Assembly (NCBI GenBank): GCA_028598975.1
Contig: JAQRMU010000055.1
Location: forward strand, 1 to 42,775
Reading direction: 5' to 3'
DNA: 42,775 bases
From: Gammaproteobacteria bacterium
GTDB lineage: Bacteria; Pseudomonadota; Gammaproteobacteria; Nitrosococcales; Methylophagaceae
The notes under the pieces: model-generated
The model's database searches: none
What the model was told of the DNA's origin: nothing
The model's input: the letters and a program-made list of their open reading frames with translations, nothing else
Part shown: positions 26,738-30,058 of the stretch, in pieces
Position numbering within the stretch: the first letter of the stretch is position 1
Layout: each line of letters opens with the position of its first letter
Translations under genes and position numbers: made by a program

Positions 26738-26914
26738 TATACCCATAATCATTCAAATTGCGAATCTTAGAAACGCTGTCATCCTCGAGTGTTACCCAGT
26801 CAAGCTGAGCACAAGCTTTGTCGAGGATCTATTGTATCAAGTAGATCCCAGCTAAAAGCATGCTGGGATGACCAAATAAAAAATGTGCAGATTGAATGAT
26901 TACCGGTAATATAG
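26738..26914. repeat. Bipartite palindromic repeat, copy 1 (MITE/REPIN-like)
   Basis: A roughly 177-base element lies between xerC and the diguanylate cyclase gene. Outer inverted repeats TAATCATTCAAATTGC (26746-26761) and GCAGATTGAATGATTA (26887-26902) match at 14 of 16 positions. Inside are two hairpins in opposite orientation. The first is ATCCTCGA (26781-26788) / TCGAGGAT (26821-26828), preceded by GTC. The second has arms ATCCCAG (26845-26851) / CTGGGAT (26863-26869), followed by GAC. The plan GTCAT-hairpin-ATCT-spacer-AGAT-hairpin-ATGAC recurs in copy 2. Confidence 0.75.
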
Positions 26915-26944
26915 AGACTTCCACACTTGAAATGACAGGACCTC

Positions 26945-27877
26945 ATGAAAGTTTTATTGGCTGAAGATTCAAAAACTAATCAAATTCTTATTCGTGCTTA
27001 TATTGAAGAAGCGGGCCACGATATTGTGATTGTGAGTGATGGTCAGCAAGCGATTGAGCAATTTCAAAATGAGCGCCCCGATCTAGTATTGATGGATATC
27101 ATTATGCCGGTCAAGGATGGCATAGAAGCCGCAAAAGAAATCAGAGTACTGTGTGAACAAGATGGAGATTGGGTTCCTATCGTCTTTTTGTCGGCGATGA
27201 CAGAATCAAAAGATATTGTTCATGCAATTGATGCTGGTGGTGATGATTATCTAACGAAACCCGTTGAAGCCGTCGTATTGAATGCAAAACTGCGCGCGAT
27301 GGAACGTATTGCTGATATGCGTCAACAGTTAAAAAAAGCGAATCGTGAATTATTACGAATGACGGTGAGAGATGGCCTAACGGGTATTGCTAATAGACGT
27401 CATTTCGATGAAGTAATTTCAAGGGAAGTGAGGCGTGCAATACGAGCTGGCTCATCTGTTTCGTTAGTAATGTGTGATATTGATTATTTCAAACCTTATA
27501 ATGATAATTACGGCCACCAAGCGGGCGATGATTGTTTGAAATATGTTGCACGCACAATGGCAAAAGTATCAAAACGACCAGGTGATCTTGTTGCACGATA
27601 TGGCGGCGAAGAATTTGCCCTCATTTTGCCAGAAACAGAGCTTTCTGGTGCGCAAGCCATTGCAGAAAATGTCAGAGTAGCAGTGGATAAACTCGATTTA
27701 TCGCATCAATACTCATTAGTGAGCGACCATATTACATTGAGTTGTGGTGTTACCACAGTCAGCCCTACTAAGGGTGATGATGTTGCAGTAACAGTGAAGC
27801 AACTGATAAAAACAGCAGACAAAGGCTTGTACTTAGCAAAAGAGCAAGGGCGTAACCAAGTTGTCGTTATAACGTAA
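26945..27877 (+). CDS. Diguanylate cyclase with N-terminal receiver domain (PleD-like)
   Basis: This response regulator should make cyclic-di-GMP when phosphorylated. The receiver domain (about 1-122) has the acidic pair E7/D8, phosphoacceptor D51 and K105. A short coiled linker (about 122-138) leads to a GGDEF domain (about 140-308). The active site reads GGEEF (220-224), an active variant. RPGD (211-214), five residues before it, matches the RxxD product-inhibition site. Ribosome site AGGA precedes the ATG. No cognate kinase is adjacent. The gene is bracketed by two copies of a palindromic repeat and faces the chemoreceptor gene. A partner in signalling cannot be deduced. Confidence 0.94.
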   Translation: MKVLLAEDSKTNQILIRAYIEEAGHDIVIVSDGQQAIEQFQNERPDLVLMDIIMPVKDGIEAAKEIRVLCEQDGDWVPIVFLSAMTESKDIVHAIDAGGDDYLTKPVEAVVLNAKLRAMERIADMRQQLKKANRELLRMTVRDGLTGIANRRHFDEVISREVRRAIRAGSSVSLVMCDIDYFKPYNDNYGHQAGDDCLKYVARTMAKVSKRPGDLVARYGGEEFALILPETELSGAQAIAENVRVAVDKLDLSHQYSLVSDHITLSCGVTTVSPTKGDDVAVTVKQLIKTADKGLYLAKEQGRNQVVVIT

Positions 27878-27897
27878 GTCTTATTTTAGTGGCGACT

Positions 27898-28047
27898 TAT
27901 ACCCATGTTGCTTCAACCTGCATATTTTCTTATTCCGTCATCCCAGTATGCTTTTAGCTGGGATCTGCTTAATACTCTAGATTCCCGCTAAAAGCATGCG
28001 GGAATGACGAGTTTCTAAGTTCTGCATCTTCAAGTATCACGGGTATA
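27898..28047. repeat. Bipartite palindromic repeat, copy 2 (MITE/REPIN-like)
   Basis: This 150-base element fills the gap between the convergent diguanylate cyclase and chemoreceptor genes. Outer inverted repeats begin TATACCC and end GGGTATA (27898-27922 and 28023-28047; 19 of 25 positions match). Two inner hairpins, ATCCCAG/CTGGGAT (27940-27946, 27958-27964) and ATTCCCGC/GCGGGAAT (27981-27988, 27998-28005), lie in opposite orientation between GTCAT and ATGAC. It may also act as the terminator for both flanking genes. Confidence 0.8.
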
Positions 28048-28050
28048 GTC

Positions 28051-29529
28051 CTAAAACAAATCCACATCACCTACTGAATCACTAGATACGGATTCAAAAC
28101 GTTTTTTCTCATCAGCAAGTTGATCAACGAGTTTCACAAGTGCTGAGCTACCCTGTTCTGCCTGTTGGAAGTGAACAATAATTTGTTTCTGAAGTGTTTC
28201 GTTCTCAAGCCAATCTTGCTCTATGGCATGCATAACTTCATGTACATTAGTATGTACCTGACTATGCGGTTCGACAAGGCTAGAATAAACAGGCAAGTGA
28301 CTATATTGTGTTTGACCATCACCAGAATCATACCACTGACCAAAACGACAATTATGGTGATCAGCAGCAACGGCTGAAGCAGCCTCGCCATGAGGTTGAT
28401 TTGATTCAACAGCATAGTAAGCCCGTTGCATATAAATGATGTGGTCCACTTTGATTAATGCTGTATTACAGATGATTTGGGTATTTGATACCATTTCATA
28501 GGTTTTTTGAGCACCTGATGATAATCGATCAAAACTCACTTTAAATTCGTTAATTAGCTGCTGAGAATCTTCTGAAAGAGTGGCCATGGTATCTGTATCT
28601 TCAGACATGATTTTACTGGCAGATGAAAAACGGCCAATAATACGGGAAATTTGTTCTGCTGCATCTTTAGTCGTTCCTGCTAATTTCTTAACTTCATCTG
28701 CTACCACAGCAAAACCTCGACCATGCTCACCTGCACGCGCAGCTTCAATCGCAGCATTGAGGGCTAATAAATTGGTTTGCTCAGCAACACCCACAATCAT
28801 GGATACCATTTCTTTGATTTCTGAACTGCTTTCCGCTAATTCTTGTGAGCTAGAGCGCATTGCTGTTGATTTTTCAACAATGATATTGAGTCTATCGTGT
28901 AATGTGGAGACATTATTTTGATTGCCTGTCGCACTTTCTACCGATTCTTTAGCCAGATCTTCAACAAGGATCATATCGTGAGCAATTTCACCAAGATCGC
29001 GCTGAGTATGTGCAATATTTTCTAATAAGCTTTCTGATTTCTGTTTGCCCAAAATGGAGAACATTTCGTCTTGTTTTTGCATCCAATGAGCTTGAGCCAT
29101 TGAGTCAACAGATTTAGAGATATTAGCCAGTTGCGGGTGATAACCAGAGCTGATGCCTCTAGAAATAGGTTTTCGGTAATATTCATGCCATTCTGCAGCA
29201 GTGAATGATGATTCTGATTCACGCATAACGGCTTCAATTTGGTCAATCGCATTATTTAACAGCCAAGCGAGTCCATAAAACGGATCATCTTTAGGGATGT
29301 GAGTAATACGATATTCTAATTTACCCATACGAACTTCATGCAACATTTTCACGATATTTTGCATGGTCGGAGTGGCCAACGTTTGTTCACTCTTACTGAA
29401 GAATAATAAGGTAAAAGCTATTGCAATACTTAATAAGAACCATTGGCTTGCACCATAATGAAAGACTAGAGCCAAAGCCATACTAGTGACTAAGCCCGCT
29501 AAAAGAAGGCTGATTATTTTATTAGGCAT
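28051..29529 (-). CDS. Methyl-accepting chemotaxis protein with CZB zinc-binding tail
   Basis: From the ATG at 29529 (within the stop region of the PAS gene) it is 492 residues; a longer TTG start is possible. Two closely spaced membrane helices (about residues 5-24 and 28-46) leave almost no periplasmic domain. The cytoplasmic signalling hairpin has [19 protein letters not shown] at its tip (about 250-268). The C-terminal CZB domain has the 3His/1Cys pattern: probable ligands H363, C394, H422 and H426. CZB domains bind zinc and sense zinc or hypochlorite in known receptors. The overlap with the PAS gene suggests an Aer-like pair in which sensing and signalling are on separate proteins. Confidence 0.92.
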
Positions 29530-30058
29530 GAGAATAGATAAACTCTTTGTATTCCAATCCTTGTTGGGCAAGAAAATCAGTTAATACCTTGAATGATGCA
29601 TCCATGGCTTTCTCATTATTATTATGCTTGCCTTCTTCAGCAATCATTTGCTGATAAATGGGGCCTAATAGATCAATTATTTTGCGTGAAGGTTGTCTAC
29701 GAACAGAGTAGTAACCAATTAACTTACTGTTTTCATCAAAACTGGGCGTAACATTGGCATAAGTCCAATAATAGGCACCATTTTTAGATAGGTTTTTAAT
29801 GATGCCGAAGAACTCTTGTTTCGTCTGAAGAATTTTCCACATAAAACGATAAAGTGAACGAGGCATATCAGGGTGGCGAATCATATTATGGGGTTGAGTG
29901 ATAAGCTCAGACTCTTCATAACCTGAGAAACGAATAAAGATTTCGTTGCAATAGGTTATTTTGCCTTTTGGATCAGTTTTGGAGACGATAAAGTCTTCTT
30001 CTGCCATCCGAATTTCTTCAGATGTGGGCGTTATTTTTGTGCTCACAAGCGTACTCAT
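29522..30058 (-). CDS. Aer-like PAS domain sensor protein
   Basis: A 178-residue soluble protein with one PAS domain (about residues 22-128). The segments [31 protein letters not shown] and [10 protein letters not shown] match the FAD-binding PAS of the Aer redox/oxygen taxis receptor. A helical tail (about 130-178) follows. It has no membrane segment and no signalling domain of its own. Its stop codon overlaps the start of the membrane chemoreceptor gene by eight bases, so the two are probably made together and form a split Aer. FAD binding is inferred by family. Confidence 0.88.

Follow-up and report, generated by a model that had tools for sequence, protein, structure and literature searches.

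The described systems closest to the elements analyzed here are ERIC-like miniature elements, IS630 transposons, and dimers of REP hairpins. ERIC has been reported from Enterobacteriaceae and Vibrionaceae (review, PMC10969869), and the ERIC-like MITEPlu5 of Photorhabdus, for which a TA duplication is reported, has been linked to IS630 ends of the CCC type (PMC6267812). For REP sequences, GTAG is the tag linked to RAYTs, and the survey that defined the CGTC-tagged REPs left their mover open (PMC3733652). REP dimers nested in outer palindromes are remarked on in the same survey for GTAG-15 of Anabaena variabilis and CGTC-1 of Halothiobacillus neapolitanus (PMC3733652). Apart from these two remarks, REP dimers inside ERIC/IS630 ends are undescribed in the literature searched, in which subscription journals are mostly uncovered; the parts of the elements presented below are of known kinds, and their combination is without a description found there. 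From sequence comparison, we consider it likely that the elements are MITEs with ERIC/IS630-type ends and a CGTC-REP dimer interior, that they are moved by IS630, and that two of them inserted independently beside a resident gene.

The window, the whole stretch of 42,775 nucleotides that was analyzed, corresponds to contig C51 of G000, a 1.88-Mb genome in 94 contigs with 99.6% completeness. A sequence-only reading had described two repeats in it with a shared plan, TATACCC-type ends enclosing GTCAT-hairpin-ATCT and AGAT-hairpin-ATGAC, and both copies were recovered with this plan. Copy 1, comprising shell and REP dimer (26738..26914, plus strand), lies between xerC and a GGDEF gene. Its left terminal inverted repeat, TATACCCATAATCATTCAAATTGCG (26738..26762, plus strand), was identified by pattern match and a matrix score of 32.1, and is followed by a first REP unit of the form GTCAT...ATCT with a TGTC-type tag and a loop insert, TTACCCAGTCAAGCTGAGCACAAGC (26778..26830, plus strand), recognized from its sequence and from loop variants across copies. 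The second REP unit, GTCATCCCAGCATGCTTTTAGCTGGGATCT (26843..26872, minus strand), is a REP unit match, and the right terminal inverted repeat, GGTAATATA (26886..26910, minus strand), has a degenerate tip and a matrix score of 14.4. Copy 2 (27898..28047, minus strand) takes up the interval that separates the convergent GGDEF and chemoreceptor genes, 20 bp past the stop codon of one and 3 bp from that of the other. Its terminal inverted repeats, TATACCCATGTTGCTTCAACCTGCA (27898..27922, plus strand) and TATACCCGTGATACTTGAAGATGCA (28023..28047, minus strand), are supported by both pattern and matrix, and they enclose two REP unit matches, GTCATCCCAGTATGCTTTTAGCTGGGATCT (27937..27966, plus strand) and GTCATTCCCGCATGCTTTTAGCGGGAATCT (27979..28008, minus strand).

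The two copies stand in opposite orientation and differ in their tags, which are TGTC and GGTC in copy 1 and CGTC on both sides in copy 2. The outer arms of copy 1 span 29 nt and are 76% complementary, and copy 2 forms a single long imperfect palindrome whose 69-nt arms are 71% complementary. When folded as single-stranded DNA and compared with shuffled sequences, copies 1 and 2 gave z scores of -4.1 and -6.0, respectively, and 0 of 200 shuffles equaled either. An Rfam scan of the window returned only a tRNA.

The outer shell consists of approximately 25-bp terminal inverted repeats of the form TATACCC...TGCA, like those of enterobacterial ERIC and IS630 transposons. Across whole genomes, the end motif, with no more than one mismatch allowed, has 66 occurrences in G000 and 105 in the sister species G008, and the reversed pattern has 0. 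A matrix built from the ends of these genomes (consensus TATACCCGTGATCATTCAAGCTGCA) found 243 matches at a score of at least 10 in 359 kb from G000 and G008, compared with a single match after the sequence was reversed; as this sample was gathered around matches, the whole-genome pattern count is the unbiased figure. Elements were defined by 87 inward-facing end pairs, a few of which are alternative pairings of nested elements. Their interiors are mainly REP dimers, but there are also three further families, one of 266 bp that has a relative of 162 bp, one of 163 bp, and one of 228-298 bp, besides single types of 181 and 264 bp and two bare end pairs of 46 bp. Automatic clustering had merged the 266- and 162-bp types with the REP group, and they were split from it by reading the sequences. 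Because unrelated cores lie within the same ends, it is the ends and not the hairpins that define the moving unit. Shell and core are separable in both directions, with shells that hold another core or none and REP dimers that stand without a shell. In the 46-bp elements, two terminal repeats stand back to back (G008:C46:45928-45973 and G008:C63:36903-36948), and these may be minimal elements or deletion products. Another hairpin core, CACCCTCATCCCAACCTTCTCCC...GGAGAGGGTTGGGGTGAGGAG, was seen within the same terminal repeats at G000:C6:16251-16478, C10:3898-4195, and C79:181-433.

Comparison with ERIC used a query consensus that gave full-length matches in E. coli genomes. On the matrix, the two ends of one E. 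coli ERIC copy reach scores of 21 and 28, and ERIC ends overall score 21-34. A full-length ERIC is also present in the sister species G004 (C76:8054-8181; L335:1055-1182), with 76% identity over 129 bp to the E. coli copy. Given these high matrix scores and the ERIC of G004, the shell can be assigned as ERIC type; the core is not that of ERIC.

The core is formed by two CGTC-tagged REP hairpins that make up a head-to-head dimer, in which shell-enclosed units follow the plan GTCAY-stem-loop-stem-RTCT, carry a CGTC or TGTC tag, have a stem that starts with AT, and point their tags outward. It had been proposed from the two window copies that stem sequences differ while pairing is kept, and this extends to the family. 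In an alignment of 54 distinct 30-nt units, 97.5% of stem cells are paired, versus approximately 79% (78.8%) after shuffling and 20-49% with the partner slid; six of the eight stem pairs show changes on both sides, and the covariation score is 0.608 versus 0.250. For this alignment, 11 of 65 distinct units were excluded manually, being either evidently unlike REPs or near-duplicates, and with all 65 retained, pairing is 93.7% versus 32-48% when slid. REP units without a shell were looked for at 40 places (38 in G008 and 2 in G000) fetched for the absence of a strong end match nearby. At 32 of the 40 there is no end with a score of at least 6, and several of the 32 show visible partial ends; as the sample was chosen away from ends, it proves that shell-less units exist and does not give their frequency. 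A short-loop CGTC REP dimer was also noted between divergently or tandemly placed genes at G000:C47:44651-44728 (L249). An open reading frame that opens inside this dimer begins MDPRLREDDE, and the automatic start of the MFS gene there is probably misplaced.

DNA searches with each copy, followed by collection and side-by-side comparison of the places found, gave approximately 45 dispersed places in G000, so that the resemblance of the two window copies is not due to chance. Several of these copies contain runs of N or lie at contig ends. The usual full-length plan is a 25-bp end, a hairpin, a spacer of approximately 12 nt, an inverted hairpin, and an inverted 25-bp end, for a total of 145-180 bp. 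With terminal inverted repeats, no coding content, a length below approximately 300 bp, and many dispersed copies, the family has the properties of MITEs, and the suggestion that paired inverted REP units and a MITE plan are both present is borne out in the form of a MITE with a paired-REP core. Five G000 copies carry extra tandem half-hairpins, which stand to the left (CTGTCATCCTCGAGTGTTACATCC), to the right (GGTAATAAAAAAGCATGCTGGGATGAC), or on both sides (C2:14922-15148, C42:3664-3887, C53:3943-4170, C89:12618-12823, and C89:33326-33524), and their sequence looks like the result of slippage around hairpins. Some G000 copies, copy 1 among them, have a loop insert of approximately 23 nt. The insert TTACCCAGTCAAGCTGAGCACAAGCTT or its complement is found in the window at 26790-26820, in G000 on C47, C66, C36:37010, C88, and C23:31244, and in several G008 copies. 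It occurs in hairpins whose stems differ and in either half of the dimer, a pattern that looks like an exchange of loops and stems among copies.

The family is patchily distributed. BLAST with copy 1 detected the element in G008 and gave 0 matches in 11 other genus members. A more sensitive pattern count over 13 genus members gave 81 REP units in G000, 140 in G008, 7 in G001, 4 in G004, and 0 in the other nine; the corresponding counts for end motifs are 66, 105, 12, and 22, with 0-2 in the other nine. This distribution, drawn from one genus with few carriers, is suggestive, though not proof, of a dependence of the REPs on the shell. When 274 genomes of the class were scanned for exact ends, six were positive including G000, and in three of the other five, paired ends enclose cores that are not REPs.

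The sequence-only reading had called for a search for a linked REP-associated or DDE transposase. No DDE_3 transposase was detected in G000, and DDE_3 matches were found twice in G008 and once in G001. All three frames stop inside a terminal repeat of the shell type, so that the ends are common to the elements and to IS630 transposase genes of these two sister species. NCBIfam assigns the G008 protein to IS630 at 171 bits (cut-off 100); its N-terminal part is missing. In G001, the repeat lies approximately 125 bp from many contig ends, some with transposase C-terminal sequence and others with a short frame that opens just inside the repeat, a pattern from which we infer a multicopy IS630 at whose copies the assembly broke. 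An intact IS630 having its two ends on a single contig was not recovered. At G008:C15:31861-32073, one element is inserted inside the spacer of another. Removal of TACCC...GGGTA and one TA from this place leaves GATCTATAGCTGTAACACTAGACTCC, equal in length to the uninterrupted spacer GATCTATGGCCGTAACACTAGACTCC of G008:C1:6109-6258, and this one nested insertion thereby fits a TA target duplication. Among 75 elements, duplications longer than TA were not above the shuffled expectation; the window copies show no clean target duplication, the right tip of copy 1 is degenerate, and no polymorphic insertion was seen.

The bracketed gene, which encodes a response regulator receiver and a diguanylate cyclase (REC-GGDEF) according to Pfam (26945..27877, plus strand), is resident and not part of the mobile unit. 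That it might have been carried together with its flanking repeats was suggested by their arrangement as two related inverted repeats around one gene, as in a composite transposon. In six sister species (G002, G003, G004, G005, G008, and G010), in keeping with the proposed check of orthologous loci, REC-GGDEF directly follows xerC across approximately 65-90 bp of intergenic DNA with no element, and in G008 the chemoreceptor gene comes next as in the window, likewise without an element. The intergenic DNA of the sister species is too diverged for base-by-base alignment of exact empty sites. The copies most similar to copies 1 and 2 lie on C47 (92% over 177 bp) and C66 (85% over 173 bp), respectively, and the two window copies share with each other only 71 bp at 86%. 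With the gene in place in six repeat-free species and the closest relatives of both copies elsewhere, transport as a unit is unsupported; we regard it as extremely improbable and set it aside on the gene order of the sister species. The sequence comparison instead supports a history in which two elements inserted separately next to a resident gene. A different explanation would be that the repeats are REPINs or BIMEs moved by a RAYT, the TATACCC repeats being incidental flanks that REP dimers entered. The core is indeed made of paired inverted REPs, REP dimers exist outside shells, and Y1_Tnp genes are present in G000 and G008, one of which is similar to the NCBIfam RAYT model but scores below its cut-off. 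Against this, unrelated cores share the same ends, the tag is CGTC and not the GTAG linked to RAYTs (PMC3733652), and Y1_Tnp genes, in the seven genomes tested, are equally present in G006, G007, and G011, where REP units of this kind are absent. The Y1_Tnp gene on G000:C47 is, moreover, not flanked by REP units of the element, with the nearest dimer approximately 1.3 kb away. The REP-associated genes thus do not track the element, and a RAYT, which has the wrong tag, no linkage, and no co-distribution, is rejected as mobilizer; the explanation as a whole is improbable.

It is also conceivable that mobility explains only the origin of the elements and that selection keeps them at gene 3' ends as regulatory structures of RNA or DNA, in the role of mRNA stabilizers, destabilizers, or processing sites. 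The strong covariation of the stems and the proximity of copy 2 to two stop codons would fit such a role, as would the gene context in G000, where 41 classifiable places comprise 22 co-directional, 14 convergent, and 5 divergent ones by simple and approximate open reading frame calls. An effect of ERIC on mRNA is reported in Yersinia (PMC2229807), and by analogy an effect of the present elements on mRNA stability is possible. However, a bias toward convergent over divergent places is also expected from selection against promoter insertion, the same places in sister species are without elements, and the distribution is patchy, as seen in the 11 genus members without a BLAST match. The earlier idea that the elements are terminators for convergent genes found no support, as neither copy contains a terminator-like site (a GC-rich hairpin with a T run); across the region, terminators and promoters are no more frequent than in shuffles. 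Maintenance by regulatory selection is therefore rather improbable as an account of the family.

In the reading as IS630-moved MITEs, a transposase of this family would recognize the TATACCC...TGCA ends, move a segment of 150-180 bp, and insert it at a TA dinucleotide with duplication of the TA, and the REP hairpins would travel as passive cargo. Two such insertions, of different subfamilies and in opposite orientation, would have come to flank a REC-GGDEF gene already beside xerC and, if transcribed, would be expected to form stable hairpins close to the 3' ends of xerC, the GGDEF gene, and the chemoreceptor gene. Because such a transposase was undetected in G000, the copies in this genome are probably stranded. 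On the minus strand of the window, a PAS-domain open reading frame (29522-30058) overlaps the chemoreceptor frame (28051-29571; MCP signal and CZB domains) by approximately 50 bp in another frame, and the two are possibly one receptor gene (28051-30058) split by a frameshift.

Within one genome, a single set of transposon ends thus holds many cores, including several REP dimer types, together with bare end pairs, and true ERIC is present in a sister species. A tentative and somewhat doubtful extension would be that CGTC REP dimers, a kind without a known transposase, spread in the genus as cargo of IS630/ERIC-type shells and that shell-less dimers are relics with lost ends. The elements suggest a possible route of spread for one class of orphan hairpin repeats, and they offer a concrete test system, with one transposase, one end set, and interchangeable hairpin cargo. 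They also place ERIC-type ends and one true ERIC in this gammaproteobacterial genus.

When placed beside known systems, the elements resemble ERIC and RU-1 (MITEEc1, MITEPlu5) in their TATACCC...TGCA ends, similar length, palindromic structure, and mostly intergenic position. The ERIC core of approximately 75 nt (GTGAATCCCCAGGAGCTTACATAAGTAAGTGACTGGGGTGAGCG) is missing, however, with a CGTC-REP dimer in its place, so that in the strict sense, which includes the core, the copies are not ERIC. With the CCC type of IS630 (Photorhabdus ISPlu3/8/19; PMC6267812) they share the terminal CCC and, judging by one nested insertion, possibly the TA target, and IS630 genes of sister species end in the same repeats, but the elements themselves are without a gene. 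CGTC-tagged REP dimers, including dRS3 and RPE-4/6 (PMC3733652), are similar in the CGTC or TGTC tag, the 8-bp stem that starts with AT, the covarying stems, and the head-to-head pairing across a short spacer. Whereas CGTC-1 to 4 have a loop of 4-5 nt and a tail of CCA, the units here have a loop of approximately 9 nt and a tail that is mostly CTA, which sets them outside those groups, and the dimers of the element are in addition enclosed in transposon ends. A REP dimer nested in an outer inverted repeat is shared with A. variabilis and H. neapolitanus, and the A. variabilis palindrome also has TATA at both ends; the end sequences are nevertheless different, REP-free outer palindromes, common here, were not found there, and no transposase was linked there. 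Finally, REPINs and BIMEs with their RAYTs likewise have a pair of inverted REP units separated by a short spacer; the present family differs from them in a CGTC rather than GTAG tag, in the lack of a flanking RAYT gene, and in a moving unit that is set by the outer repeats.
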